Source of the DNA: Lineus longissimus | Lineage: Eukaryota > Nemertea > Pilidiophora > Heteronemertea > Lineidae | Reading direction: 5' to 3' | Length of the DNA stretch: 64,000 nucleotides | NCBI RefSeq assembly: GCF_910592395.1 | Contig: NC_088308.1 | Coordinates: 27,233,501-27,297,500 of the forward strand | In this document: positions 3,651 through 35,591 of the stretch, piece after piece | Layout of the letters: each line of letters begins with the position of its first letter | How positions within the stretch are numbered: the stretch's first letter is position 1 | Made by a program: the position numbers and the translations under genes | The notes under the pieces: generated by a model | The model's input: only the letters and a program-made list of their open reading frames with translations | Database searches by the model: none | Told to the model about the DNA's origin: nothing

Positions 3651-3684
3651 TTGTTATTCTGGTTTTCTCTCCGAGATACTTGTA

Positions 3685-4530
3685 CCGTATTTTCCGGCGT
3701 ATGACCCGCGGCTTTTTGCCCTCAAACAGGCCCAAAAAGTGGGGGTGCGGGTAATACAAAGGTGCGGGTCTTGCGTGGATTCTGAGAGGGATAAGCCCCA
3801 ACCCCAAAGAAAAAAAAGGGGACCAAACTGGTTAGTTGATAAGGATTTATGTCCATCGTTTTCACATTGTTTTCAACCAATATTTCCGCCATGATCGCAT
3901 AGTTTGTGATGTCTCCGCTAGGGAAAATAGTCTTATTGGGGGCATCTCATAAGCGATGTTTTGGCTTCCGCAAGTCTGAACTGTGCCCCACCCTACCTGA
4001 GGTTCAGCCAACTGAGGACTCGGCAGACGATTCCGATTCCGAGGATACGTTGATGGATACGATGTCGAAGACGGACTTCGATGAACTGTTCCGGGACCTC
4101 TTCCATGATGATACCGAAGATGAAGATTTCGAAGGTTTCGAAAGTGATGAATGTGAATGATATGCTCATTTAGGACAATGACTATATGCTTAAGACAATT
4201 TGTGTGCTAATATTGGGTCAAGTAATGTTACAACAGATCACTCTAATAACATTTCTACCATTCTACCAATGCATAATATTGAGTTTTGAGACGGCCCTTC
4301 ACTTCAAAACAAGTTACGGCCATGCTGGAATTGATCCACTTTGGTTAACAATTAAAAAAAACATGGCGGTTCTAGGATGTCAACATCAATGAATGGCTTA
4401 CTATTTTTGGAGAATGCGGGTCTTGGAGCAGTGCGGGTCATAATCAGGTGCGGGTCTTGCATGGCTTTAGGTAATGGTCAAAGGGGGTGCGGGTCATAGG
4501 GCAGTGCGGGGGATAATCCGGAAAATACGG
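3685..4530 (+). mobile_element. TA-flanked DNA transposon relic, 846 bp, with acidic-tail ORF remnant
   Basis: The element begins CCGTATTTTCCGG and ends with its reverse complement. It is flanked by TA on both sides (3683-3684 and 4531-4532), as expected of the Tc1/mariner/pogo superfamily. Both ends carry repeated 'gcgggtc' motifs. Internally, 3906-4160 encodes 84 residues ending in a very acidic tail (DSADDSDSED, DEDFEGFESDECE). This could be the 3' end of a transposase fused to 5' sequence by an internal deletion. That assignment is inference from the acidic tail and the TA duplication; no catalytic domain is present. A shorter copy lies in reverse at 19650-20112. Confidence 0.75.
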
Positions 4531-4814
4531 TAATCAGGACGTCTCAAGGACACGCTGAAAAGACAACACCATGTGGTTGTGTCAAGTAGGATGTGCCAAC
4601 ATTCATGACATTTTCTGTGCACAATACAAAGGGGCTGGGGGGGGGGGGGGACACAGAGATGTCTGGTCATTTTCACCTCTTATCAAGTTTCAGGGGACCT
4701 TGCCTGGTTCCTTAGGGTGGTTGGAGAATGGACTTAGTTCAGGTGAAGAAATTGTCCTATTCTATGTTAAAACCCTTCACATTTCTTGTTGCAATGCAAA
4801 AGAAAACCGAGATT

Positions 4815-7114: not shown

Positions 7115-7684
<570 letters not shown>

Positions 7685-9090
7685 TTTTTTTTCCTTTCTG
7701 ATTTTAGTAGACCAGCACCTGTTATATAGTGATTGCTTTGGCATTATTCATTGGCAGATACCATTGTTTTTAGTGACAGTGCTCTGCCAAGCTTTGCCTC
7801 GGGTAAAATTTGACACAATTACATGTGTGTCCAGCTTAGAAAAACTATCCGACACATATCTAATTTGTTTGTCTGACATGATTTTCGAGATTGAGCATAA
7901 AAGACTCATGTTTTTTTCATGTGACCTATGTTCTATTCAAAATGTAAGTCTGGTGATGAGCCACATTCCATGTAGTCTATGTTTTAAATCTTCCAAGTAC
8001 TGGTACCTAGTATTTAGTACATCTATCTACCAGTTCTTTCTATGTATTATAATATGTGATATTTGTAACTGTAAGCTTTGTCATACATGTATGATGTTTT
8101 AACTCTTCCAAGTACTGGCACTAAGGTAAAATTGTACAATCATAGTCCTGATGCAATGCTTTACTGCACTGCCCACTGTATTCTACACTGAAGCGGCTAT
8201 GGTTGTACTGAAAAATACCTTCCTTTATCCTGTGAGTACTGGAAAAACAAATTTAGGGAAATCCCTGCATCTCAGCAGATTGTTAATCATCATTTTATAA
8301 CTTAAAACTGTAATAATTTTTGTAAATATTTGTGATAAGCGTGAGAAAGAATCTATTTTCTTATAAGATATTGATATTTATATACCAGCTGTTTTGTACT
8401 TATGTAGGATATTGCTAAGCTTAAAGAACCAGAAGGTATTCATGAAATGAGGTTTGCGCCAAACAACCATATCGATGAGGACTAATATCATCAGTCCAGA
8501 AGTTCACAACAGAAACCGTGACAGAAATTATCTTGTTTTTTATTTGACAAGTTGAGGGTTCAACTCCAATACATAAATATTCGGCCACCTCCATGATATT
8601 ACCTAGAATGCTGAGCTTTCACTGCATGGGCAGACAGTCCTAGTTTTACTCTGGTTGAATATACATCATGATTTGACTGAAAATGTCTTTAGATATTTAG
8701 AGTGTGGCGTGCACAAAACTAAAATTTTAAATGATTTGTTGATAAATGATTTAGATTTCACAGTAATCTTTGTTTCTTTCATTTTTACTGCGGCACAAGG
8801 GTCCCTTTCTCTGCTAGTGTTTATCTTCATTCCTGTTTGAAAAGAAGATATGCCGACTGAGGGATTCTCAGAACATTGAACCCACATAGGTTACATGTTC
8901 ACAACCAGGAGAAGCTGAGGTTGGACATTCTATCAACAAAGACGAAAATGCCGGCCATCTACCAACATTACAAAGTCACAATCACTCTAGTGTGGTTGGG
9001 TGATGATCACACCCAAGCCAGCTACATGTATTTATGCAGCAAGACCATTTTATTTAACAGAACAAAGTCACAAACAGTCCAGTGTTGTTA
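7685..9090 (+). other. Probable ARF 3' UTR and intergenic sequence
   Basis: AT-rich sequence after the ARF stop codon with several short open frames of no coding character. I see no clear AATAAA before about 8.6 kb. Nothing else is recognised before the tandem array begins near 9.1 kb. Confidence 0.4.
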
Positions 9091-10660
9091 GGTGATTGTC
9101 ACAACCAAACAGGGCACATTTCCAGTCTGCAGCCTTGTCAAGATTCTTAGAATAGGCAAGGCCATTCAGGTCGAGAACCAAGGCACAACCAGTCCAGTGT
9201 CGTGATTGTCACACCCAAACCAGATCCATGTACAGTCTGCATTCTTGTCCAGATTCTGAGAATAGGCAAGACCATTCAGGTCAAGAACAAAGGCACAACC
9301 AGTCCAGTGTTGTGATTGTCACACCCAAATCAGATCCATGTACAGTCTGCATTCTTGTCCAGATCCTGAGAATAGGCAAAACCATTCAGGTCAAGAACAA
9401 AGGCCTAACCAGTCTAGTGTCGTGATCCTGAGAATAGGCAAAACCATTCAGGTCAAGAACAAAGGCACAACCAGTCCAGTGTTGTGATTGTCACACCCAA
9501 ACCAGATACATGGACAGTCTGCATTCTTGTCCAGATCCTGAGAATAGGCAAAACCATTCAGGTCAAGAACAAAGGCACAACCAGTCCAGTGTCGTGATTG
9601 TCACACCCAAACCAGATACATACAGTCTGCATTCTTGTCCAGATCCTGAGAATAGGCAAAACCATTCAGGTCAAGAACAAAGGCACAACCAGTCCAGTGT
9701 CGTGATCCTGAGAATAGGCAAAACCATTCAGGTCAAGAACAAAGGCACAACCAGTCCAGTGTTGTGATTGTCACACCCAAACCAGATACATGGACAGTCT
9801 GCATTCTTGTCCAGATCCTGAGAATAGGCAAAACCATTCAGGTCAAGAACAAAGGCCTAACCAGTCCAGTGTCGTGATCCTGAGAATAGGCAAAACCATT
9901 CAGGTCAAGAACAAAGGCACAACCAGTCCAGTGTTGTGATTGTCACACCCAAACCAGATACATGGACAGTCTGCATTCTTGTCCAGATCCTGAGAATAGG
10001 CAAAACCATTCAGGTCAAGAACAAAGGCACAACCAGTCCAGTGCTGTGATTGTCACACCCAAACCAGATCCATGGACAGTCTGCATTCTTGTCCAGATCC
10101 TGAGAATAGGCAAAACCATTTAGGTCAAGAACAAAGGCACAACCAGTCCAGTGTTGTGATTGTCACACCCAAACCAGATACATGGACAGTCTGCATTCTT
10201 GTCCAGATCCTGAGAATAGGCAAAACCATTCAGGTCAAGAACAAAGGCACAACCAGTCCAGTGCTGTGATTGTCACACCCAAACCAGATCCATGGACAGT
10301 CTGCATTCTTGTCCAGATCCTAAGAATAGGCAAAACCATTCAGGTCAAGAACAAAGGCACAACCAGTCCAGTGCTGTGATTGTCACACCCAAACCAGATA
10401 CATGGACAGTCTGCATTCTTGTCCAGATCCTGAGAATAGGCAAAACCATTCAGGTCAAGAACAAAGGCACAACCAGTCCAGTGTCGTGATTGTCACACCC
10501 AAACCAGATCCATGGACAGTCTGCATTCTTGTCCAGATCCTGAGAATAGGCAAGACCATTCAGGTCAAGAACAAAGGCACAACCAGTCCAGTGTCGTGAT
10601 TGTCACACCCAAACCAGATCCATGGACAGTCTGCATTCTTGTCCAGATCCTGAGAATAGG

Positions 10661-12260
10661 CAAGACCATTCAGGTCGAGAACAAATTGTTACTGGGTGAT
10701 TGTCACAACCAAAGAGGACACGTTCACAACCTGCAGCCTTGTCCAGATCCTGAGAATAGGCAAGACCATTCAAGTCGAGTACTAACTGTTACTGGGTGAC
10801 TGTCACAACCAAAGAAGACACGTTCACAACCTGCAGCCTTGTCCAGATCCTGAGAATAGGCAAGACCATTCAAGTCGAGTACTAACTGTTACTGGGTGAT
10901 TGTCACAACCAAAGAAGACACGTTCACAACCTGCAGCCTTGTCCAGATCCTGAGAATAGGCAAGACCATTCAAGTCGAGTACTAACTGTTACTGGGTGAT
11001 TGTCACAACCAAAGAAGACACGTTCACAACCTGCAGCCTTGTCCAGATCCTGAGAATAGGCAAGACCATTCAAGTCGAGTACTAACTGTTACTGGGTGAC
11101 TGTCACAACCAAAGAAGACACGTTCACAACCTGCAGCCTTGTCCAGATCCTGAGAATAGGCAAGACCATTCAAGTCGAGTACTAACTGTTACTGGGTGAT
11201 TGTCACAACCAAAGAAGACACGTTCACAACCTGCAGCCTTGTCCAGATCCTGAGAATAGGCAAGACCATTCAAGTCGAGTACTAACTGTTACTGGGTGAT
11301 TGTCACAACCAAAGAAGACACGTTCACAACCTGCAGCCTTGTCCAGATCCTGAGAATAGGCAAGACCATTCAAGTCGAGTGCTAACTGTTACTGGGTGAT
11401 TGTCACAACCAAAGAAGACACGTTCACAACCTGCAGCCTTGTCCAGATCCTGAGAATAGGCAAGACCATTCAAGTCGAGTACTAACTGTTACTGGGTGAC
11501 TGTCACAACCAAAGAAGACACGTTCACAACCTGCAGCCTTGTCCAGATCCTGAGAATAGGCAAGACCATTCAAGTCGAGTACTAACTGTTACTGGGTGAT
11601 TGTCACAACCAAAGAAGACACGTTCACAACCTGCAGCCTTGTCCAGATCCTGAGAATAGGCAAGACCATTCAAGTCGAGTACTAACTGTTACTGGGTGAT
11701 TGTCACAACCAAAGAAGACACGTTCACAACCTGCAGCCTTGTCCAGATCCTGAGAATAGGCAAGACCATTCAAGTCGAGTACTAACTGTTACTGGGTGAC
11801 TGTCACAACCAAAGAAGACACGTTCACAACCTGCAGCCTTGTCCAGATCCTGAGAATAGGCAAGACCATTCAAGTCGAGTACTAACTGTTACTGGGTGAT
11901 TGTCACAACCAAAGAAGACACGTTCACAACCTGCAGCCTTGTCCAGATCCTGAGAATAGGCAAGACCATTCAGGTCGAGTACTAACTGTTACTGGGTGAT
12001 TGTCACAACCAAAGAAGACACGTTCACAACCTGCAGCCTTGTCCAGATCCTGACAATAGGCAAGACCATTCAAGTCGAGTACTAACTGTTACTGGGTGAT
12101 TGTCACAACCGAAGAAGACACGTTCACAACCTGCAGCCTTGTCCAGATCCTGAGAATAGGCAAGACCATTCAAGTCGAGTACTAACTGTTACTGGGTGAT
12201 TGTCACAACCGAAGAAGAAACATTCACAACCTGCAGCCTTGTCAAGATTCTGAGAATAGG
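10661..12260. repeat. Homogenised 100-bp satellite block with three-unit higher-order period
   Basis: Sixteen consecutive 100-bp units are nearly identical. A C/T variant in ACTGGGTGA(C/T) at unit ends falls at 10800 C, 10900 T, 11000 T, 11100 C, 11200 T, 11300 T, 11400 T, 11500 C, 11600 T, 11700 T, 11800 C, followed by T units. This gives a C-T-T pattern of 300 bp with one extra T unit near 11400 that also carries a private GTGCTAACT variant. Confidence 0.9.
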
Positions 12261-12539
12261 CAAGACCATTCAGGTCGAGAACCAAGGCACAACCAGTCCA
12301 AGGCCGGCCTGTGTTGCTGGGTGATTGTCAAAACAAAACCATCATGTGCAGTTGGCAGCCTTGACAATAAGCAAGAGCTTTTAGGCAGAAAACCAAGGTA
12401 TAACCAGTCCAGTGTCGCTGGGTGATTGTCACACCCAATCCAGATACATGTACAGTCTGCATTCTTGTCCAGATTCTGAGAATAGGCAAGACCATTCAGG
12501 TCAAGAACAAAGGCACAACCAGTCCAGTGTTGTGATTGT

Positions 12540-15340
12540 CACACCCAAACCAGATACATACAGTCTGCATTCTTGTCCAGATCCTGAGAATAGGCAAAAC
12601 CATTCAGGTCAAGAACAAAGGCCTAACCAGTCTAGTGTCGTGATCCTCAGAATAGGCAAAACCATTCAGGTCAAGAACAAAGGCACAACCAGTCCAGTGT
12701 TGTGATTGTCACACCCAAACCAGATACATGGACAGTCTGCATTCTTGTCCAGATCCTGAGAATAGGCAAAACCATTCAGGTCAAGAACAAAGGCACAACC
12801 AGTCCAGTGCTGTGATTGTCACACCCAAACCAGATCCATGGACAGTCTGCATTCTTGTCCAGATCCTAAGAATAGGCAAAACCATTCAGGTCAAGAACAA
12901 AGGCACAACCAGTCCAGTGTTGTGATTGTCACACCCAAACCAGATACATACAGTCTGCATTCTTGTCCAGATCCTGAGAATAGGCAAAACCATTCAGGTC
13001 AAGAACAAAGGCCTAACCAGTCTAGTGTCGTGATCCTGAGAATAGGCAAAACCATTCAGGTCAAGAACAAAGGCCTAACCAGTCTAGTGTCGTGATCCTG
13101 AGAATAGGCAAAACCATTCAGGTCAAGAACAAAGGCACAACCAGTCCAGTGTTGTGATTGTCACACCCAAACCAGATACATGGACAGTCTGCATTCTTGT
13201 CCAGATCCTGAGAATAGGCAAAACCATTCAGGTCAAGAACAAAGGCACAACCAGTCCAGTGTCGTGATTGTCACACCCAAACCAGATCCATGGACAGTCT
13301 GCATTCTTGTCCAGATCCTGAGAATAGGCAAGACCATTCAGGTCGAGAACAAATTGTTACTGGGTGATTGTCACAACCAAAGAAGACACGTTCACGACCT
13401 GCAGCCTTGTCCAGATCCTGAGAATAGGCAAGACCATTCAGGTCGAGAACAAATTGTTACTGGGTGATTGTCACAACCAAAGAAGATACGTTCACAACCT
13501 GCAGCCTTGTCCAGATCCTGAGAATAGGCAAGACCATTCAAGTCGAGTACTAACTGTTACTGGGTGATTGTCACAACCAAACAAGACACGTTCACAACCT
13601 GCAGCCTTGTCCAGATCCTGAGAATAGACAAGACCATTCAGGTCGAGAACCAAGGCACAACCAGTCCAAGGCCGGCCTGTGTCGCTGGGTGATTGTCAAA
13701 ACAAAACCATCAGGTGCAGTTGGCAGCCTTGACAATAAGCAAGAGCTTTTAGGCAGATAACCAAAGCACAACCAGTCCAGTGTCCTGATTGTCACAACCA
13801 AACCAGATACATACAGTCTGCATTCTTGTCCAGATCCTGAGAATAGGCAAAACCATTCAGGTCAAGAACAAAGGCCTAACCAGTCTAGTGTCGTGATCCT
13901 CAGAATAGGCAAAACCATTCAGGTCAAGAACAAAGGCACAACCAGTCCAAGGCCGGCCTGTGTCGCTGGGTGATTGTCAAAACAAAACCATCAGGTGCAG
14001 TTGGCAGCCTTGACAATAAGCAAGAGCTTTTAGGCAGATAACCAAAGCACAACCAGTCCAGTGTCGTGATTGTCACAACCAAACCAGATACATACAGTCT
14101 GCATTCTTGTCCAGATCCTGAGAATAGGCAAAACCATTCAGGTCAAGAACAAAGGCCTAACCAGTCTAGTGTCGTGATCCTCAGAATAGGCAAAACCATT
14201 CAGGTCAAGAACAAAGGCACAACCAGTCCAGTGTTGTGATTGTCACACCCAAACCAGATACATGGACAGTCTGCATTCTTGTCCAGATCCTGAGAATAGG
14301 CAAAACCATTCAGGTCAAGAACAAAGGCACAACCAGTCCAGTGCTGTGATTGTCACACCCAAACCAGATCCATGGACAGTCTGCATTCTTGTCCAGATCC
14401 TAAGAATAGGCAAAACCATTCAGGTCAAGAACAAAGGCACAACCAGTCCAGTGTTGTGATTGTCACACCCAAACCAGATACATACAGTCTGCATTCTTGT
14501 CCAGATCCTGAGAATAGGCAAAACCATTCAGGTCAAGAACAAAGGCCTAACCAGTCTAGTGTCGTGATCCTGAGAATAGGCAAAACCATTCAGGTCAAGA
14601 ACAAAGGCCTAACCAGTCTAGTGTCGTGATCCTGAGAATAGGCAAAACCATTCAGGTCAAGAACAAAGGCACAACCAGTCCAGTGTTGTGATTGTCACAC
14701 CCAAACCAGATACATGGACAGTCTGCATTCTTGTCCAGATCCTGAGAATAGGCAAAACCATTCAGGTCAAGAACAAAGGCACAACCAGTCCAGTGTCGTG
14801 ATTGTCACACCCAAACCAGATCCATGGACAGTCTGCATTCTTGTCCAGATCCTGAGAATAGGCAAGACCATTCAGGTCGAGAACAAATTGTTACTGGGTG
14901 ATTGTCACAACCAAAGAAGACACGTTCACGACCTGCAGCCTTGTCCAGATCCTGAGAATAGGCAAGACCATTCAGGTCGAGAACAAATTGTTACTGGGTG
15001 ATTGTCACAACCAAAGAAGATACGTTCACAACCTGCAGCCTTGTCCAGATCCTGAGAATAGGCAAGACCATTCAAGTCGAGTACTAACTGTTACTGGGTG
15101 ATTGTCACAACCAAACAAGACACGTTCACAACCTGCAGCCTTGTCCAGATCCTGAGAATAGACAAGACCATTCAGGTCGAGAACCAAGGCACAACCAGTC
15201 CAAGGCCGGCCTGTGTCGCTGGGTGATTGTCAAAACAAAACCATCAGGTGCAGTTGGCAGCCTTGACAATAAGCAAGAGCTTTTAGGCAGATAACCAAAG
15301 CACAACCAGTCCAGTGTCGTGATTGTCACAACCAAACCAG
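12540..15340. repeat. 1534-bp segmental tandem duplication inside the array
   Basis: Blocks around 12.54-13.80 kb recur at an exact offset of 1534 bp around 14.07-15.34 kb. The same order of A, B, 62-bp and GGCCGGCC modules is kept, for example GGCCGGCC at 13670 and 15204. A further ~280-bp duplication places another GGCCGGCC module at 13951. Confidence 0.9.
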
Positions 15341-15890
15341 ATTCATGTACAGTCTGCATTCTTGTCCAGATTCTGAGAATAGGGAAGACCATTCAGGTCG
15401 AAAAGAAAGGCACAACCAGTCCAGTGTCACGACCAAACCAAATACATGTATAGTCTGAAGCCATGTCTAGGTGTCCTTGGCATCCTGCCTGACATTATAC
15501 AAAGGCCATTAAGGTAGAAAAACAAAGTCACAACCAGTCCAAGGCCGGCCAGTGTCGCTGGGTGATTGTCAAATCAAAACCATATACAGGTGCAGTTGGC
15601 AGCCTTGACATCCTGACAAAAAGCAAAAGCTTTCAGGCAGAGAACCAAGGCACAACCAGTCCAGTGTCGCTGGGTGATTGTTACAACAAAATCAGATAAA
15701 TCTGCAGTTATGTCCAGATATCCTTTAGGCATCCTGACAACAAGCAAAGACCATTATTCATGTGGAGAACCAAGTGTAGTCGGTCCAGTGTGGCTGGGGG
15801 ATTGTAACATCCACACCAGATACTTTTACACCGTCTGTAGTTGTGTCCATATGTCCTTTATCCCAACAATAAGGAAAGATTAACGAAGAC

Positions 15891-16490: not shown

Positions 16491-16815
16491 TACAGATATA
16501 CAAAACCCATATTTTATTGAAAGCATATTAACAGAACTTTACAACTGCACAAAATTCCTTTATATCGTTTAAACGTATTCGAATCTTACAAAACTGCCTT
16601 GCAGACTGAATTCGACTTGAAATAATTCCTTCATGATGTGAACCCATCTCTGTTCCTTGGACATCTGGAATGAAACAACAACATTGATGAGACACAAAGG
16701 ACAAAAATAGAACCGAAACCTCAAACATGTACTAATCATACCAAAGCACAAAGGCTCAATACTACACCAGCATGAAAGCAACAAGAAGGCATTTTCTCTT
16801 AGTGTTTTCTGTTAC

Positions 16816-16892
16816 TGCCAAGATCAGAGTTGGTAAGGTTCAAAATCATCAATTTCATAAACACGGACCATTAGAATCATCACATCTTGGCA
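16816..16892 (-). ncRNA. Box C/D snoRNA with guide to 28S AAACACGGACCA
   Basis: On the minus strand a terminal stem GCCAAGA/TCTTGGC encloses box C GTGATGA, a degenerate D' (ATGA), C' TTGATGA and box D CTGA. The stretch before D' (TGGTCCGTGTTT) is complementary over 12 nt to the conserved 28S segment AAACACGGACCA. That is the region modified by snR39/snR59 guides in yeast and U32/U51 in human. Because D' is degenerate, the exact methylated nucleotide is uncertain. The guide before box D is unassigned. Confidence 0.85.
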
Positions 16893-17170
16893 GACAGGTT
16901 TTAACACCCTACATTGATAAATGATTTTGGATTCCTTGCCTCCATGTAGCAACACTAGTGCAATCCATTATGAACAGCAATAAGAAAGAAACACATCACT
17001 TACAGCATGTTCTGGGCTCTTTCATCACAGCTAACGAGTCCTGCTCCAGTCTTTAAACTGGCTGAAATAAAGAAGACTTGTAATGAATTGAATGACTGAA
17101 CAGCACACATTAGCTACTGAAACCAAGTACCTATGACCCAATCTCTCAACACAGTGTGAATGATAGTCTT

Positions 17171-17328
17171 ACTGCCTCAGACAAATGCCTCGTTCCATGT
17201 GCTTCATGGCAGGTACAGACAGAAACAAGCAGAAGACAACATTTCCCAGGCATAAAACACACCACAGGAGGTTGCTGCTACAAGCTCTGTTTCACCTCAG
17301 ACTCGTCATCAAAATCATCATCAGCAGG
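17171..17328 (-). ncRNA. SNORD15: U15 box C/D snoRNA, copy a
   Basis: The minus strand shows a CTGC/GCAG terminal stem, box C TGATGA, then GATGACGAGTCTGA, and near the 3' end GAGGCATTTGTCTGAGG. Both conserved blocks match U15/SNORD15. GAGGCATTTG pairs with 28S CAAATGCCTC and GATGACGAG pairs with the adjoining CTCGTCATC. The fifth base before box D pairs with the last A of CAAA, the site called A3764 in human and A2281 in yeast (snR13). Length is about 157 nt against about 148 in human. Confidence 0.93.
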
Positions 17329-17610
17329 GACATGTGAAATGGAACATTAGAGACGACACTCTCAACTCGTCCGAAGTGATTTGTGACCACAGAAGCAACA
17401 GGTTATGTTGACAAGTTACAAACCATCACAACTCTGTAATATCTCGTTGTATTTAGGCCTTGAAATTTTCAACTATGAAGAGGTAACTTACCAACGAGAC
17501 AGCTTCATTGAAGGATCAACTGGGTGCAGAGACCTAAAAGTAACAAACACAACTCAGTAAATCTTGAGATGACTTGCACAACATCACAGGACTTGAAATA
17601 ACAAGTTCAA

Positions 17611-17687
17611 GCGGTACTCAGTTGGTTGATCCAGAGTCATTCCAACATAAATGTTGGTCCAGAAGTATATGTTGTCATCCTTGCACC
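17611..17687 (-). ncRNA. Box C/D snoRNA, paralogue of 20631-20709
   Basis: Box C is the imperfect AGGATGA, box D is CTGA before GTACC, with a short GGT/ACC end stem. The stretch before D (CTGGATCAACCA) is shared with the copy at 20631-20709. Ten of these bases are complementary to the very 5' part of 18S rRNA (TGGTTGATCC). No known methylation guide for this site comes to mind, so the target is a hypothesis. It lies alone in its intron. Confidence 0.65.
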
Positions 17688-17927
17688 ACATGAACTACAT
17701 GTACATCATTTTGAACAAGAAAGGTTTAACTACTCACATGAGGCAGAACCGAACAAGCCAACTGCCTAATCTCTCCGTCGCGTGAAGGAAATGTTGAGCC
17801 TGAAACATGTGAACAAAATATGTACTTATACAGATAATACTCTATCAGGTTCACAGGTACAGTTATTCAAACGTCTGACATTTGAATTTCATGTTTGTCA
17901 GTTCAAACTAAGAAATAGTAGTGTACA

Positions 17928-18084
17928 GTTTGCCTCAGACAAATGCCTCGAGTCGCATCACAGTATTGGAGAGTAGCATCACCCAGACATCAAGTTACGG
18001 CATAAAACACACCAGAACAAGACTACAACTGGGCAAGGTACAAATCCACATCAGGCTCGTCATCGGTGTCATCATCAGCATACA
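17928..18084 (-). ncRNA. SNORD15: U15 box C/D snoRNA, copy b
   Basis: A second U15 copy on the minus strand, with GATGACGAGCCTGA near the 5' end and CGAGGCATTTGTCTGAGGC near the 3' end. The 28S-pairing blocks are the same as in copy a. A shared GGTGTGTTTTATGCC lies in the middle. The remainder is diverged, so this is not a recent duplicate. Confidence 0.92.
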
Positions 18085-18214
18085 CACTACTAGTACAGAC
18101 AACCACAACAACTAAATTGACTACATCCATAACTGTATCACTAACTTTCAGAGAACAGTTCTAGCTGCAACAATTTGAAAGCCTTTCATGAATAGATAAA
18201 GACAAGCAATAAGC

Positions 18215-18345
18215 ACATGTTCCTGACTTCGGTAACAGGGTATCCTACAATAAAGACCACCTGAGCATAGGGTCAGAAATATACTGTCCGAGCCTATTAG
18301 CACCAATGTGTTATGATGAAGACACAACGGTGACTCTAGACTCGC
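18215..18345 (-). ncRNA. H/ACA snoRNA, copy 1 of pair A
   Basis: The minus strand folds as hairpin, H box, hairpin, ACA. Hairpin 1 has stem CGAG/CTCG, pocket TCTAGAGT / CTAATAGG, and upper stem CACC/GGTG capped by TGTGT/ACACA. The H box ACAGTA fits ANANNA. Hairpin 2 closes TTC-TGAC/GTCA-GAA, with upper stem CAGG/CCTG. ACA lies three nucleotides from the 3' end. Compared with 18647-18776, the loops' pocket bases are kept while stems change in paired fashion. Confidence 0.85.
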
Positions 18346-18511
18346 TTTTTGAACTTCCAAGATCTGTGTATTTTCACTTACCAATACTCCTGTACTTGGC
18401 AACCACTGTATAGGCAGAATTCACAGTTCAGTCCGAGGACCTGCCAATACAAAGGAAGAAGTCAATTTCATGAATCAGAGATGACAAAATTGACATAATA
18501 CAATAGATTAG

Positions 18512-18594
18512 TCCTTGCTCAGAAAATAAGGCATATCTCAGTCAAGAATTCTCAGAGACTCTAGTCCGATTTACCTTTTATTCATCACAGCAGG
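18512..18594 (-). ncRNA. Box C/D snoRNA with guide to 28S GACUCUAGUC
   Basis: The minus strand shows terminal stem GCT/AGC extended by CCT/AGG, box C TGTGATGA, an internal CTGA (D') and box D TTCTGAGC. The ten bases GACTAGAGTC before D' are fully complementary to 28S GACUCUAGUC. The fifth base before D' pairs with the U of GACU. By my recollection this corresponds to a yeast 25S Um site guided by snR78; that equivalence should be checked. The guide before D is unassigned. Confidence 0.82.
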
Positions 18595-18646
18595 TCAAAT
18601 ATACAATATGTCCATTTTAAATAACTATTCAATTCACAAGATAAGC

Positions 18647-18776
18647 TAATGTTCCAGACTTCGGTAACAGAGTATCCTATGATAAAGATAATCTGAGCAT
18701 AGAGTTGGAATTTACTGTCCGAGCCTATTAGCACCAATGTGTTATGATGAAGACACAACGGTGACTCTAGACTCGC
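18647..18776 (-). ncRNA. H/ACA snoRNA, copy 2 of pair A
   Basis: Same architecture as 18215-18345: CGAG/CTCG base, identical first hairpin, H box ACAGTA, second hairpin and ACA three nucleotides from the end. In hairpin 2 the base is TTCCA/TGGAA and the upper stem CAGA/TCTG. These replace TTC-TGAC/GTCA-GAA and CAGG/CCTG in copy 1 while pairing is preserved. The pocket strands CTATGCT and TTACCGAA are shared. The rRNA target is not identified. Confidence 0.85.
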
Positions 18777-18858
18777 ATCAAATTAAACACCATTTTGCAC
18801 TAGTTTCTGTTATTCATATTGTAAATGACAATAGTCAAGTGGCACGTACAAAATTTAC

Positions 18859-18990
18859 TTTTGTATCCATCGACAGGCCCATAGCAATGGTTTCATCATA
18901 ACAATGGGTTTTAAAATGGATTATTTATCTGCCCTCATTATGAAATACTACCCAAATATAGTTATTTAGGGCAGTAGCGTTGATGAGGGT
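18859..18990 (-). ncRNA. H/ACA snoRNA, copy 1 of pair B (28S GACAGGΨ candidate guide)
   Basis: Minus strand: hairpin 1 base CCCTCAT/ATGAGGG, upper stem ACTGCCC/GGGTAGT, and H box AGATAA. Hairpin 2 has base ATCCAT/ATGGAT and upper stem CCCAT/ATGGG, then ACA plus three nucleotides. The second pocket has TAAAAC on the left and CCTGTC on the right. These pair with 28S GUUUUA and GACAGG, flanking the U of GACAGGUUAGUUUUA, a known pseudouridine region. Three rather than two bases stay unpaired, so the target is probable but not proven. Confidence 0.85.
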
Positions 18991-19025
18991 TAGAGTTATA
19001 AGAAATTATTTCAGATGAGAAAGAA

Positions 19026-19149
19026 TCATGTCCGTCGACAGGCCCATGGCAATGTATTTATCACAACCAAGGGTTTTAAAACGGATGCCGTTTATATCTC
19101 CTTTAATTGAATACCGTTATACCATTCATAGCAGTAGCGTTGTAAAGGA
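19026..19149 (-). ncRNA. H/ACA snoRNA, copy 2 of pair B
   Basis: Minus strand: hairpin 1 base CCTTTA/TAAAGG with the same CAACGCT pocket strand as copy 1, and H box ATATAA. Hairpin 2 has base TCCGT/ACGGA with pockets TTTTAAAAC and CCTGTCG identical to copy 1, then ACA plus three nucleotides. Stems differ from copy 1 at many positions but remain paired, while pockets are fixed. Only about 35 nt separate it from copy 1. Confidence 0.85.
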
Positions 19150-19419
19150 AAAGGACAGATAAGCTTGGATCAATCGTTTTCTACCCTCATTATAATGGTA
19201 AATGCTTACCGACTATGTGCCTTGCATTTTTGCAAAGATGTCACGAATCAGAGTTCAATTCGCCAGCTATTGAACAGGACCTGAAAAAAAGTTGCATGGG
19301 TAAAGTAAAGATTTACAAATCCTCAGGATATGTTGAGAAGAGAGCACTCGAGAATAAACTGCATGGGTACTCATTTTAAGCCAGCAAAAGGCTAATACCC
19401 ACAGTATCACAGATGATAT

Positions 19420-19506
19420 CATGAGGTCAGACAGCCAAGGATGTAACTACATGGAGTATTCAGGTTTAGTCGCGAAACCAATCCTTGTTCATCATCATCC
19501 CACATT
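19420..19506 (-). ncRNA. Box C/D snoRNA with guide to 28S ACAGCCAAGG
   Basis: Minus strand: terminal stem ATGTGG/CCTCAT with one mismatch, box C GATGATGA, an internal CTGA and box D CTGA. The ten bases CCTTGGCTGT directly before box D are complementary to 28S ACAGCCAAGG, placing the fifth base on the first C of GCC. I recall this as a snR64/U74-type site. Upstream, GGTTTCGC can pair with the adjoining 28S GCGAAACC. The two matches to neighbouring rRNA support the call. Confidence 0.8.
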
Positions 19507-19649
19507 TCATTCGAACTTGTATGTAACCAGAAAAGACATGGCAGCCTTCAGAAAGCTCGAAATGGTGATATCCAGAGGATCTTGGCCAATGCTTGTTTTG
19601 CTCTGGCCATCTCATGACAAACTCTTACTCAAAATCAGGACCAGAATTA

Positions 19650-20112
19650 CCGTATTTTCCGGATTATCCCCCGCACTGCCCTATGACCCGCACCCCCTTT
19701 GACCATTACCTAAAGCCACGCAAGACCCGCACCTGATTATGACCCGCACTGCTCCAAGACCCGCATTCTCCAAAAATAGTAAGCCATTCATTGATGTTGA
19801 CATCCTAGAACCGCCATGTTTTTTTTAATTGTTAACCAAAGTGGATCAATTCCAGCATGGCCGTAACTATTTTCCCTAGCGGAGACATCACAAACTATGC
19901 GATCATGGCGGAAATATTGGTTGAAAACAATGCGAAAACGATGGACATAAATCCTTATCAAGTAACCAGTTTGGTCCCCTTTTTTTTCTTTGGGGTTGGG
20001 GCTTATCCCTCTCAGAATCCACGCAAGACCCGCACCTTTGTATTACCCGCACCCCCACTTTTTGGGCCTGTTTGAGGGCAAAAAGCCGCGGGTCATACGC
20101 CGGAAAATACGG
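19650..20112 (-). mobile_element. Shorter copy (463 bp) of the TA-flanked transposon
   Basis: This is the reverse complement of the element at 3685-4530, flanked by TA (19648-19649 and 20113-20114). It lacks exactly the 383 bp corresponding to 3931-4313 of the first copy, and 846 minus 383 equals its 463-bp length. The shared parts are almost identical. It lies inside an intron of the snoRNA host gene. Confidence 0.9.
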
Positions 20113-20340
20113 TAATCATCCTCTGCACAAGCTTGCTCCGCCTTGTGCACAAATATCAGAAATACTACACTAACTCATTTCTTCAACACTTCCAATTTGC
20201 ATGTTTTACTCACCTTAAGCATCTTGTCAAGGAGGGTCGAGTTGGACCATAACACCACCAGATACCTGAAACCGCAAGTACAGAGATGAAAGGCCAAATT
20301 GCAGCCAGAAGTGACAGGAGCGGTCTCTTTCATAATTGAT

Positions 20341-20416
20341 GCACTGGTCTCATATTAGCGGGGGTTATCATCATTGGACTACAGTGTAGGTAAGGGTAAT
20401 AATCATTGACCAGTTC
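20341..20416 (-). ncRNA. Candidate box C/D snoRNA
   Basis: A seven-base terminal stem ACTGGTC/GACCAGT encloses a C-like ATGATTA, an internal ATGATGA and a D-like ATGA on the minus strand. The boxes are imperfect and I could not assign a target. It is the only candidate in its intron, in keeping with the pattern of the gene. Confidence 0.45.
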
Positions 20417-20630
20417 AAACAATTCAGCATCAAAGACAGATGCGATCAGCTAGGGAATAAAGTTCTAGACATTCAAGACCACAGCATGTTCAAGTATCTC
20501 CTAATGAATCTTACCTGTCAACTATTGACCATCTTACAACTACAAGACTGCCCGTTCCCTGAAACATGAAAGAGGAGCATTAGAAGATCCTGAAGTTAAC
20601 AAATGCTCAATACGTCAACAGAGAAATACT

Positions 20631-20709
20631 GGGGCATTCAGGTGGTTGATCCAGATTCATCCTGACCGAAGTCAGTCCACTTAATGTTATCTTTTCATCA
20701 CTATACCCC
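20631..20709 (-). ncRNA. Box C/D snoRNA, paralogue of 17611-17687
   Basis: Minus strand: terminal stem GGGGTAT/ATGCCCC, box C GTGATGA, D' CTGA, C' GGATGA and box D CTGA, an orthodox arrangement. CTGGATCAACCA before box D is shared with 17611-17687 and offers a ten-base match to the 5' end of 18S rRNA (TGGTTGATCC). It sits alone between exons 20515-20558 and 20816-20868. Confidence 0.85.
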
Positions 20710-22244
20710 ATGTGGCTGTGCAGTGCTGCAGCATGTCTACTTTCATGACTTTGCCAGAGTCAAGTATTCTGCAAGGAAAACAATACTTTAATATTATAGT
20801 ACTGCAATAGCTTACCGATTTCTAGGGAATACAGTCCAGAGTTTATCATCTTTGCGACTTTTGATTTTCTGAAAGAAAATGCAAAATGTAGGGAAAAATG
20901 TTACCTGAAGATCGTCCACGAGTTGGCCCAGCATTTCCATACAGGTTTACCTGCGGGTCTTTTTCTTAGATGCAACAAGGCAAGCAGTCATATTCTAGGT
21001 GATTTTATCTACATTTGTAGATTAAGCATTGCAGGATTTAATCATTAGCTTGCCGAAACTAGGAGGGGGAGATGGGAGGCTAATTTCAATATTGTCATGT
21101 CAAAGACATTGCCTGGACTTTCTATAATAGACTTTTTTTTTGAAGAAGGTTGTTTGGGCAAGGAATTGTCCGAGTTAATGGAGTCGGCTAATTTTACGCA
21201 CATGGTTTCAAACGGCTGCATGCATTGCCGATCTCAATCAGTGCATGCAGTGCACGAGCGCGGGCATGGACATAATACAGTAGGCTACACAAATTCCCAC
21301 GTGGCCAGTCAAAGAACTTGAAAATTCCTTCACGATGGACATTCGAATTAAATTCAGCAATGCCATAGTCATAACTAACTGTTTTATTTAACAAATTACA
21401 TAAAAAGAACGTCGGAATGTTGGGATAAAATACTGAAAAATCAGAGAACACCCACCACAACCGCCATGAACCGTGCCGCAGCCGCAAATGCCGTCTCTTC
21501 CACCCACGTGCCAAGTGTCAAGGTCGAATTTGATTTTCGAATGAAATGTAAAATAGCGGAAATTTTTAGATAGATGACACGTAGCCTCCGTAATATTTAT
21601 CATATATTCTTGTGCTCATGATTTTGCATATTTAAAAATTGCTTGAAAAAAACTTAGAAAAATGATTGGGTCAAGGTCACTTTTTGGTGACCTCTGACAT
21701 GTCTGACCGCATTTTGTTACCTTCGAGGGATGTCGGAGTTGTGCAAGAAGTTCATATCGTGGGACATGCGAATTAGCCACGATCCGCTTACACCAACAAT
21801 AAACTAACCAAGTCCACACATGCGCATTCGAATTTCTGGCGAAAAGGGAACTCATGAGCTAATGATGGCGTCACCTATTGTAACGAGAAGAACTCCGACA
21901 TCCCTCAATGTGTACATCGAGGATGAAAGAAATCACTCTCCATGACCTCTGACCCCAAAGGAAAGTGTTGAGAAAACTTTTTTGTAGTGAATAAAAGTTA
22001 TTTTTCTGCTAAACTAAAGCGCTATTCTACTAGTTTTCATGGCTGAAGGAAGGTATTTATATCCTTTACTAGTTTTGCTGGTTTTAGTACGTTTGCTTTT
22101 TGTTATTTGACATGAAAAAAGAAAGGAAATGGGAAAATCTGGAAAACTGACCACCACAGCACAGGGTGTTTCACAAAAAAATCCCTAGAAATTAGCTCTA
22201 CCCTTCAATTGGCGCATTCGTCGTCACCTGCTATAATGCCATTG

Positions 22245-25171: not shown

Positions 25172-25334
25172 GGTTGCGTAAATCAAAAATGACGTATTCT
25201 TTTGGAAAGGATGCAAAAACACTGAACAAGATTTCATATTGAGCCCTGTTGCAGGTTGCATAAATCAAAAATGACATATTCTTTTGAAAAGGATGCAAAA
25301 ACGCTGATCAGGATTTCATATTGAGCCCTGTTGC
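25172..25334. repeat. Two-copy tandem repeat, 82-bp unit
   Basis: The 82-bp unit at 25172-25253 is repeated at 25254-25334 with about nine mismatches. A fragment of it, the 'catattgagccct' motif, recurs near 25428. Confidence 0.85.
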
Positions 25335-27132
25335 ATGTTTGGTAAGTTAGTGAATTCATATTATACGGGCGTTAACCGGTCTATGACAGTCGTCTAAAAT
25401 CGTTGATATCAAATATCCACTGATGGCATATTGAGCCCTTGTTGATTAGAATAGAACATGACGACGTGACAGTACTTTTCTGTCGCTTTGCGACGGAAAT
25501 TTCTTTACAGTCTTTACAGAAAAACGATTATCAACATTGATTTGATCTAAATGAAGTTCATCCTCGGGGTATTATCCGCTGAACTGGAAGTCATTCAATC
25601 ATTTACAAACAAAAGACTCTTGATAGATTGCACGGCCTGTAATTTTCTGGTTATCACAGGTGCCTCACTCCTACCCGGACATCAAATATCTAATTCGTCT
25701 CCGATTCACGCCCACACCCATTCTCATCGTTAGAGCCAAATGATCGAAGTATCTTGTCGTCTATTTGGGTCCTTTTTAGGGTTGTTGGGTCTCAGCTGTT
25801 TGTAATATCAATATGTATTACTTTCATGTTCAACTTCTGATTTATTGTGAAATGTAATAATTTTGTTGTCTCGCTTGTGATTCCCGGGGAATATTGGTGA
25901 ATATATTGCATTTATCGATTCTCTTTCAATTCCTGTGTCACTGTTGTTTATGCTCGCATGATTTTAGTGAAACAAGTGATCTGATCCGTTTCTGCTCATA
26001 GAAAAAAAGTATTGATATTGAGTTGGGAGCTGAGCGTCAACTTAAATGACATTTTTAGGTCTCGAAATAAAATTTGGTGGATTGTTACATAATGCCTGAG
26101 GAGGTTGAGACCCGTTGTAGCTTCAACTGTAGTGCTGAGACCTGCCAGTGCAGTGTTAATTCCTTAGACCTAAAAGTCAGAGAAAGAAAGGACTGGACAG
26201 AGTCGGCCTTTTGAAATGTCGAGCCTCAAAGGCATCCTGCTGATCAATCGATCACTTTTTGATATTGCCCTCTATTCAAACTGTTTTTCTGTTCGCCACA
26301 GGTGGCGTCTGATGATTAAAATTTGAGGTTGTACTTGTAAACTGCCTCGGTTCGAAAAGGTCTCAGTGTCTTTTCTATCAAAATCTGACAGCTTGCTTTG
26401 GTCTCCTGGGTGGTGGGCTGCTTGAGGCACAATTGTGCTAAAGAGCTCATTAGATGTCTTGGGACACTCATTCCTCCCAGCTCTGGGCATGCATGAAAAA
26501 CTGTAAACTCCATCTCCTCTTGTGAATACTGCACAGACAGGCTGCTGAGCAGGTTTTTGTTGGGTGAATATACATCTACAATAAAGCACATGAAATTGAG
26601 ACTAGAGTACTAGAGAATAAATAACCTTCATATTTCTCCTTTTTTTGGCTTCTCAATTTCTGTGCAATAAATTATTAGTCATTGTTTCAAAGTGCTGGAG
26701 TTATGCTTCAGTGTGATCACACTCACAGCTAATGTATACTAATGGACTTTCATGTGCCCATCACATCATTTCCTACGAAATATTGCTTTTACATTGAGTG
26801 TATTTACTGAGGGAAGCAGACAGAAATGTTCAAATAATCTAAATTGATCATGAGCTTTCTATCAATAAATATAGCGTCCCTGTGGTAGAACAGCTAGACT
26901 ATCATATCTTGCTGAAAGAAAGTCTGTTGTCGTACACTAAATCTTAGAGTAACCAACTTTTAGGCCGGTTATACTCTAAGACTAATATTGAAGGGGGTCT
27001 GACTGAATGTTCTCGTCAGAAGGAATAGTGCATCCATTCTGCAGACTTTGTGTCTCGAGGCATATCCCCTCACATTCAGGTTTAAAGAGACAGCGCAAGG
27101 TCTTTCGCGAATTTCGGCTTTCCTTATTATAA

Positions 27133-27350
27133 GGTTAACTATGGATAGAACAAAGCCTACAAGTTAGCAGGGGCTTGGTTAACTATGGGTAGAACAAAGC
27201 CTACAAGTTAGCAGGGGCTTGGTTAACTATGGATAGAACAAAGCCTACAAGTTAGCAGGGGCTTGGTTAACTATGGATAGAACAAAGCCTACAAGTTAGC
27301 AGGGGCTTGGTTAACTATGGATAGAACGAAGCCTACAAGTTAGCAGGGGC
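27133..27350. repeat. 44-bp minisatellite, five copies
   Basis: The unit ggttaactatggatagaac... is repeated five times with copy starts at 27133, 27177, 27221, 27265 and 27309. Only one or two bases differ between units, so the expansion is recent. Confidence 0.95.
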
Positions 27351-30300
27351 TGCTAGTGCGTTGATCTGCATCCCAGAGCAGCCGATGTACCATTAACCAA
27401 GGCTAACACCTGCGCAAAGGAAAAGCACCAGTGTGGTTAACAGAGTTAACAGTATGACCAAAAGTGTAACGAAATTTCTCTCAAATCAGTTCTGGCTCTA
27501 TAATGCACAGAGTATTATTCTTACAGTTCATCTGTAACTGTTCCAGACGATTGCTAAGATGCCTGCCACGGCTATCTTTGGAACTGAACCAAGAAAAGCA
27601 AGATGTAAATGGAAGTCCTGTGTCACCAACCAACAGCCCTAAAAGACTCCCAGAAGGTCTTATGCTGCTGAAATAGTACATGGTTTGCTGCTCAAGTTTG
27701 ATTGTATGTCCTTGTGATTTATAATCCGTCAGAGTCAAATGGTCCTTGAGGACGCCTTCTTTCCACACTGATCAATAAAAGTCATGAATACAATGTTTGT
27801 TGATTTTCGGAGTGCCGAGGGGACGGAGTCAATACTGTTGTTGATATGAAAATGAAACATTGAGAGTCTTGCTTTGTTAGAAGTAGGTTTGAGCGAGAGT
27901 CTAATTTAAGGTCATATGAACTCAGAAAATTCTGTAGAGACCAGACAGCTGAATTGCTGAGCTTTTCAGTGATACTTGCGGTAACTTGACCTTCCCTGCT
28001 GCATCTTTTACTGAGTTGAACCACAGTCTGTTGTATATAACAAAGGCTTTGAAGCTTGTCTGTTGTTACCTGACCATTTTGATAGAGCTTTCAGTAAAAA
28101 GTTGCAGGCTAAAACTAGGTCAATTTGTCCCACTTTTGGTAAACTAGGTCAAGTGTCATGAATCTGGATTTGTTTGCATCTGATGATGTCTGCAACAGGG
28201 TGACCAAATGACCCTCTTGTATTGTACCCATAAAGTCTGCATCACATGGATATATGCAGTTATAAGAACTATGTATGTAGCTCTGAGTTCTCGTTAAAGA
28301 GGCACCCCAGATCAGTTATGCTGGTGCTCTTTTGCACCCATGATAAAACACTTGACAGCTGTAAATTGAATCAATTATTAAAGCTTAACGCCATGAAACC
28401 AATTACCAGATGTCAGGGAATCATTGTAAATCAATCAAATGGATGAAAGAAATCTCTTATTGATGTTTCAACTATCAAATGTAACCAGCGGAATAAAATC
28501 AGTAATGGAAATTTAAGAAATGTTGACGAGTGAAGTTGTATCTATTGAATGGAACAGAACCGTGAGAAACCTTTATGACACACATCCTCATAATCGGACT
28601 TGTCTATTGTGTGTAACCCACGGCCTGCTTTCCTTGACAAAGTACCCAGACGGTGCTGGTCCCGTTGGGTTAGATACACTCACATTACGATCTCTGACTC
28701 AGTGATGAATCGGCGCTCGACGAGGATGCTTCGCTGTGTGTATCAGTAGCGGATCTGCTACCTTAGTCAAACAGTTCGAGGAAATAGAGGTTTTCTTAGT
28801 TAATAGAGACAAAATACACAATATGGGATACCCTCTTAGTATTAAGTGGGAAGTATAGTGTTGTCGTAAGGATTGTGATATATTTTTATGGATTCCTATT
28901 GCAACATTCTAACATACATTTGTATTTAAACTCAAGAGGATAGTTGATATCATGACGCAAGTATGTATTTTTATTCTCTACTTCTCCTCTTTGAAATTTA
29001 CAAACTTTAGTGTGCTCATTTACATCAGAATGAGGATCTGCATGTTTCTCGGCCGGCTTTTTTCCACCCCTGACCTAGGGACAGGTGAAGATCCTCATAG
29101 TGCACCAGCCTTATGCATTGGTAAGCTTAACCTGCTACATGTATCCAAATCCCGACCACCAAGGTTTTAGCATCTCATCAAAATTTAAGATTTACCCGGC
29201 AACGTTTAAAGGGAGTATACATGTAGACCATGAGGTTCGGGATGGCTAATCTGGGTGAGACATGTTGCCACCCGATAGCGATTTCCTGTGTTTTGGCCTG
29301 GGTCTATTAGAAAACCAGGTCCAGGAGAAAGTCTATGTAGTTCTTATACTTTGGTAATATGTACGTAGGCCTGTGGTTTGATTTCTTCACTCAGGTTTAG
29401 GTATAATTAGGCTTGCCAGGTTTGTATAGGCAATATCAAGACTGTAGTGTAATACTTGGCAATGTGCTACTTATATCTTCCATTATCTATGGCTTTATTT
29501 TCCACTTGCTATGAAAACACTATGTAATAGCCAATATCAAGGCTCTTGATACTTGGCAATACATGTATACTACATGTATCTTCTGTGGCTTGATATTCTC
29601 TACATTGGCTATCGCTTCTCAGTCATGACATTGACAACAGCTGTGATGAATCTCAGGAATAGGGACGATATGATGCCTCATATCTATTTGAGAGAAACAA
29701 GTTCCCAATACCGCAGGAAATATTAAATCTGTCTGCATATCAAATCTTGTGAAAAGAAAACATCATTTCTAGATCCATATTCCACTTGCAATATTTTCCC
29801 AATCAGTCTTTATTTGTCAATGGCCTCAACATATCAAATTGATCTGCTCACGAATGGTGTGGTTGATATCACTCTGGGCGTCAATATGTGCTGTTTCAAT
29901 TGATGTTTTCCTTGACTTGACAATTCACTGCCAGTCCCTCCTTGGCCGTGTAATGGAGGAAATAAAGAGGCATTTATCATTTCAGTAAACAATGGCACTG
30001 AATCCTTCAGTCAGGTCAGTTAAGAATGGAGATTTTCTCAGCCTATTTCTTCTTTGAACTCGACGCTGACAACAAGAGCAGATCAATTCTGCTTGAATAG
30101 TGAGTGCATGATCCTATCAAATCAGTAGGTCACTCCACAACAAAGGTGCTGGTGCCATCTGTAACTTTGTATTAATGATATAATGTACCTTTGAAACATC
30201 AAGCAAAAGGCGACACTTTGCTGATAAATCACAATCAAGAATTCGATACTTCAGCCTATTCAAAACAGCCTATTCATCTGTGCTTCAGCCATGTCACTGC

Positions 30301-35431: not shown

Positions 35432-35591
35432 GTCTATGCTAGCATCTTCGACATCTAAGTCAGTTGATTTTGACAGTGATTGAGGTCATTTTCATTCCTG
35501 TTTCCTTACCTTCTTTACTTGCAGATTACCCCGTTAAGACTGAGCCGCCACCATTACTTCCAAAAGCAAGTACGAGTCTATCTCCGGGCGC

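Follow-up and report, generated by a model that had tools for sequence, protein, structure and literature searches.

Which kind of gene, if any, occupies a stretch of DNA with little protein-coding potential and a chain of short, exon-like segments? The question is raised by a locus of the ribbon worm Lineus longissimus, located within a stretch of 64,000 nucleotides (nt) of contig NC_088308.1 (positions 27,233,501 to 27,297,500, forward strand; hereafter the window, to which all coordinates refer). An original prediction, made without database searches, proposed that this locus is a host gene for small nucleolar RNAs (snoRNAs) of both the box C/D and the box H/ACA class. The present analysis indicates that the minus strand of 16,495-20,951 is very probably a noncoding multi-snoRNA host gene, predicted to be transcribed by RNA polymerase II, spliced and polyadenylated. 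Twelve snoRNA candidates (eight box C/D, named A to H, and four box H/ACA, named H/ACA-1 to H/ACA-4) were found on this one strand between short exons, in eight of the nine predicted introns, which bears out both the proposed mixture of classes and the estimate of about twelve members (two of them U15-like, with other C/D and four H/ACA RNAs). The evidence comprises boxes, terminal stems, guides, paired changes between copies, and a chain of splice sites without a long reading frame; from it we infer the transcription, splicing and processing of the host RNA and the modification of ribosomal RNA (rRNA) by its products. Confidence in this reading is slightly reduced, because the number of U15 guides depends on how the rRNA sequences were fetched.

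Predicted exons and introns

Ten exons were predicted. A splice-site scan alone recovered six internal exons of 42-71 nt, in agreement with the protein-poor chain of such exons described originally: exon 2 (20816-20868, 53 nt), exon 3 (20515-20558, 44 nt), exon 5 (19210-19280, 71 nt), exon 6 (18382-18440, 59 nt), exon 7 (17738-17799, 62 nt) and exon 8 (17492-17533, 42 nt). Two further exons were added by hand: exon 4 (20214-20265, 52 nt), whose acceptor lies under the scan cut-off, and exon 9 (17004-17061, 58 nt), whose donor (GCT/GTAAGT) does so. The 3′ part of exon 1 was placed at 20951-21010, where 21010 is an arbitrary 5′ bound, with a donor (CAG/GTAAAC, score 3.7) at 20950; the use of an alternative donor at 20904 would leave an intron of only 36 nt before the acceptor at 20868. 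The last exon, exon 10 (16495-16664, 3′ end approximate), has an acceptor with a score of 4.9 and contains the sequence AATAAA at 16513-16518, so that the predicted chain combines canonical splice sites with a poly(A) signal. The scan yielded six exons on the minus strand and none on the other strand, compared with a chance mean of about 0.8 and a chance maximum of 5. Upstream of exon 1, a search by eye for TCT-type and 5′ terminal oligopyrimidine (5′-TOP) starts revealed several pyrimidine runs.

The longest ATG-initiated frame of the spliced RNA encodes 52 amino acids (aa), a length equalled in 23.6% of 1000 shuffles (with the arbitrary start of exon 1). It is highly unlikely that the host is, or was, a protein-coding gene, e.g. 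for a ribosomal protein, with exons representing a decayed or short coding frame. The spliced RNA does start with a basic 44-aa frame, whose residues 5-42 align with residues 1-38 of human RPL30 (12/42 identities in a single comparison), but at E=0.62 this alignment is not significant and an RPL30 origin of the first exons was rejected. Moreover, the 44-aa frame already ends at a stop codon in exon 3, and shuffled sequences contain frames as long as the longest ones of the spliced RNA. Three peptides from this RNA, including the 44-aa frame, matched no Pfam family at E<=10; the PDB gave a single chain, unrelated, at E=0.24. A tRNA scan (bacterial settings) found none.

The introns of the predicted noncoding host do not follow a pattern of one snoRNA each: a single candidate is present in introns 2, 3, 4, 7, 8 and 9, two in intron 6 and four in intron 5, while intron 1 contains none. 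With the bounds used here, 75-80 nt separate the 3′ ends of snoRNAs A, B, D and F from the 3′ splice site. This is close to the value of about 70 nt at which, according to passages of one report (PMC1821038), fly snoRNAs cluster and which is given there as optimal in vertebrates.

snoRNA candidates, guides and controls

The window (64 kb, both strands) was searched with Rfam models. From another listing, of 29 matches at E<=10, those recurring at E<=0.5 over the window or backed by a second test were used. Nine matches with E<=0.5 were listed, falling in eight distinct places, all of them at the locus and on the minus strand, while no family reached its gathering score anywhere in the window. 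Since none of the snoRNAs attains the gathering score of its family, their names carry the suffix “-like”. A guide-free scan, independent of Rfam and rRNA, looked for three features: a C box (one mismatch allowed), a D box and a terminal stem. With cut-offs of 5, 6 and 7, it gave 4, 3 and 2 candidates, respectively, at 16.4-21.0 kb on the minus strand and none on the plus strand; in 24 equally large tile-strands from outside the locus, each cut-off gave 2 altogether. The loosest cut-off picked up A, B, F and H.

Guides were compared with six large-subunit (LSU) and four small-subunit (SSU) rRNAs of other eukaryotes, obtained from contigs in bacterial assemblies and not from the rDNA of the animal itself. 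Six of the eight rRNA-bearing contigs were scanned and used, and two (L003 and L005) were dropped as short; the LSU of L008 is truncated at the 3′ end, that of L006 contains a group I intron, and a search of viral contigs with a eukaryotic LSU pattern found none. Counted as guides were words ending 0-2 nt before CTGA or ATGA and complementary to rRNA words common to at least three LSU or at least three SSU. For word lengths (k) of 9, 10 and 11, the locus contains 6, 4 and 3 such box-adjacent guides, respectively, as against 6, 2 and 1 in 118,800 strand-bases elsewhere; the corresponding Markov means were 0.37, 0.07 and 0.007, with maxima of 4, 2 and 1 in 300 resamples. The two U15 matches in these counts are not independent, because the rRNA contigs were fetched with a pattern that holds the U15 target.

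Four C/D candidates resemble named families. snoRNA C (19423-19503; SNORD53/SNORD92-like, Rfam E=2.5e-5 over the window, 42.5 bits against a gathering score of 46) carries a D guide, CCTTGGCTGT, to the 28S sequence ACAGCCAAGG, exact in three of the six LSU. snoRNA H (16815-16893; SNORD18-like, E=1.1e-3, 38.7 bits against 41) has a 9-bp terminal stem (CTGCCAAGA/TCTTGGCAG) and a D′ guide, GGTCCGTGTTT, directed to 28S AAACACGGACC, the 11-mer being exact in four of the six LSU. The two U15 (SNORD15)-like copies, E (copy 1, 17930-18080; E=9.8e-5) and G (copy 2, 17172-17326; E=1.2e-4), score 38.5 and 38.2 bits against 75; C and D boxes are present together with a D guide to 28S CAAATGCCTC, although a pattern that includes this very target had been used to choose the LSU set. 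The guide of G is 12 nt long. Since E and G align across 18080-17931 and 17326-17173 and no further, the duplicated unit was probably the snoRNA itself.

snoRNAs A (20631-20709) and F (17611-17689) share an identical guide to the 5′ end of 18S rRNA. In A this guide, GGATCAACCA, lies one nt before CTGA and is complementary to 18S nt 5-14. Inspection by eye identified a 7-bp terminal stem in each (GGGGTAT/ATGCCCC in A, one including G-U pairs in F, which was detected by the guide-free scan). Neither has an Rfam match above gathering, the best minus-strand scores being 20 bits (A) and 16.5 bits (F). The two remaining C/D candidates are B (20343-20413), weakly similar to SNORD103/SNORD34, and D (18511-18596), which has an Rfam match over the window and an rRNA guide. 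B was found by the guide-free scan and has a 7-bp terminal stem (ACTGGTC/GACCAGT) and a 12-nt match to one of the six LSU; its D guide has no rRNA match, and its boxes C and D are off-consensus as judged by eye.

The H and ACA boxes of the other class were likewise read by eye. H/ACA-2 (18859-18991) is SNORA26-like, and H/ACA-1 (19026-19159, approximate bounds) is a copy of it with a SNORA26-like 3′ pocket. The bipartite SNORA26 guide is present: in H/ACA-2, the 3′ pocket base-pairs with LSU GACAGGU-UN-GUUUUA, the two arms flanking U-N through 13 pairs (one G-U), with a score of 12.5 in all six LSU, and the pocket of H/ACA-1, identical in its letters, gives the same score in the same register in 6/6 LSU. 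None of 300 shuffled pockets reached 10 in all six LSU, in a control on this single register. The scan as a whole covered 13 pocket definitions with several registers per hairpin; three registers were tried for the 3′ pocket of H/ACA-2, the other two of which gave no match, and the remaining definitions were dropped, as their sporadic matches involved one to three rRNAs and no one site common to most. The SNORA26 match scores 25.2 bits against a gathering score of 40, and SNORA33 matches the same H/ACA-2 stretch with 29.9 bits against 74. H/ACA-3 (18647-18777) and its copy H/ACA-4 (18215-18346) are SNORA3/45-like (Rfam matches over the window of 31.2 and 30.9 bits against 51). Their 5′ parts are almost the same over 68 nt (99%), and they differ in their 3′ hairpins; in the pocket scan, no rRNA target pocket common to several rRNAs was detected for them. 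Single folds of H/ACA-2, -3 and -4 have two hairpins, as does the two-sequence alignment of H/ACA-1 with H/ACA-2.

The locus contains four pairs of similar snoRNAs. Together with a transposon-like insertion in intron 4 (see below) and the off-consensus boxes of B, they would suit an explanation in which the snoRNAs are real but some copies are pseudogenes, the locus being a degenerating duplicate of a host that functions elsewhere in the genome. This is unlikely, as the U15-like, SNORD18-like and SNORD53-like copies have retained intact guides, boxes and stems, and paired changes preserve the stems of H/ACA-1 and -2: in this two-sequence comparison, five of 26 pairs are changed on both sides, five on one side, and none is broken. 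The 35 pairs compared between H/ACA-3 and -4 include one two-sided and two one-sided changes, with none broken.

Several observations weigh against the proposed noncoding host. No Rfam family attains its gathering score; the models that support B and D are weak, and their guides are exact in only one of the six LSU; and the best single fold of H/ACA-1 encloses its hairpins in an outer helix. C, D, E and G escape the guide-free scan, whose strictest cut-off gives 2 candidates here versus 2 elsewhere. On the plus strand, the guide counts in this region are 1, 0 and 0 (k=9, 10 and 11), and without the two U15 matches the counts of the minus strand fall to 4, 2 and 1, which equal the resampling maxima, though they exceed the means. 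As regards the gene structure, inspection of the sequence upstream of exon 1 gave no assignable start site, intron 1 is empty whereas intron 5 has four snoRNAs, and the distance to the 3′ splice site is 114-156 nt for C, E, G and H. Finally, the splice-site cut-offs were fixed after a first listing had been viewed, and one chance tile and one resample each reached five mini-exons.

The last two points, and the crowding of introns 5 and 6, would also suit an explanation in which the snoRNAs are released from a polycistronic precursor or transcribed from their own promoters, as in plants and yeast, with the splice sites present by chance. This explanation was considered the least probable of all, since the predicted exons occupy the gaps between the snoRNAs, both the acceptor and the donor were found by the scan for six of them, A, B, D and F keep their regular distance to the 3′ splice site, and the chain ends with a poly(A) signal.

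Surrounding sequence

The insertion in intron 4 is a 471-bp element resembling miniature inverted-repeat transposable elements (MITEs), with 29-nt inverted ends (19646-20116), and has no part in the function of the gene. A second copy, about 99% identical and in the opposite orientation, is located at 3683-4534, where it is split by about 380 bp of other sequence. The sequence indicates recent MITE-like activity in the window.

Directly downstream of the 3′ end of the host, the region 9059-15427 contains several kilobases of tandem repeats (periods of 62, 100, 110, 172 bp and more), without a stop-to-stop frame of at least 120 aa among the frames listed. Short tandem arrays are present at 27133-27351 and 25172-25339 (44-bp x5, 98% matches; 82-bp x2, 91%). 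Box-adjacent matches of 10-11 nt to conserved rRNA occur outside the locus at 57556 (plus strand) and 47834 (minus strand); both were rejected as C/D snoRNAs, as no convincing C/D frame was visible by eye.

A frame for a Kir channel is located at 35544-37040 on the plus strand; the host lies between it and an ARF-like gene at 7115-7684. Among the 120 matches listed for the Kir frame, a JGI protein is 92% identical to it and a protein of the nemertean Tubulanus polymorphus 77% identical over 83% of the query; two proteins of the midge Diamesa (51-53% identical in the best local alignment) outscore that of Tubulanus in bits, ranking just below the window's own Kir and the JGI protein.

Predicted function and comparison with known hosts

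If the locus is such a host, transcription of the minus strand would run from about 20,951, or from further upstream, to 16,495, through exons without a recognizable protein. The transcript would be spliced and polyadenylated, and its introns debranched and trimmed to mature snoRNAs, so that the spliced RNA would be a by-product and the introns the product, as in other noncoding hosts. Four C/D snoRNAs (two U15-like, one SNORD18-like and one SNORD53-like) are predicted to guide 2′-O-methylation of 28S rRNA, and H/ACA-1 and -2 to direct pseudouridylation of 28S rRNA at the U flanked by GACAGGU and GUUUUA; the targets of B, D, H/ACA-3 and H/ACA-4 are less certain.

snoRNAs A and F would pair with 18S nt 5-14. 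It is conceivable, though doubtful, that A and F form a C/D family absent from Rfam, which methylates U8 (D+5 rule) or keeps the 5′ end of 18S rRNA open until formation of the central pseudoknot, competing with U3, and that their host is a lineage-specific gene gathering, with up to four per intron, snoRNAs that are kept in separate coding hosts elsewhere. If true, action on the first 18S nucleotides would represent a testable early step of small-subunit assembly. No open-access paper was found for a snoRNA and 18S Um8, other spellings of the site not having been searched.

One snoRNA per intron predominates in animals, but intronic clusters occur, and two snoRNAs within one intron can yield snoRNA-related long noncoding RNAs (sno-lncRNAs), as stated in passages of PMC11028025; therefore, introns 5 and 6 may also produce such forms.

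The locus adds a candidate mixed-class snoRNA host for ribbon worms; a literature search combining snoRNA and nemertean returned no paper title on such a gene among the matches listed. The gene would escape reading-frame annotation and does escape Rfam at standard cut-offs, so that the number of snoRNAs in such animals may be underestimated.

In vertebrates, several of these snoRNAs reside in separate coding hosts (RPS3, RPL4, WDR43, RPL27A), whereas here they lie together in one gene. The vertebrate genes GAS5, UHG and U17HG consist of short noncoding exons with snoRNAs in successive introns and a poly(A) end, an organization predicted here as well. Unlike them, the present locus carries both snoRNA classes and several snoRNAs per intron, and no 5′-TOP start was identified. 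Similarity to the Drosophila dUHG hosts lies in the duplicated snoRNAs located in successive introns of an invertebrate gene; the snoRNA content differs, and two classes are present here. GAS5, UHG and U17HG are named in passages of PMC6954239, and those of PMC1821038 state that dUhg 6 has since been attributed to a coding gene. With regard to the snoRNAs themselves, the guide stretches agree with the consensus of the SNORD15, SNORD18 and SNORD53/92 families, as do two pocket sides with that of SNORA26, but the matches to all of these and to SNORA3/45 are below gathering. As snoRNAs change hosts during evolution (passages of PMC3511168), this grouping is unusual in content, not in kind. Multi-snoRNA hosts such as UHG, GAS5 and dUHG are already known, and the interest of the predicted gene lies in the A/F pair and in the crowded introns 5 and 6.

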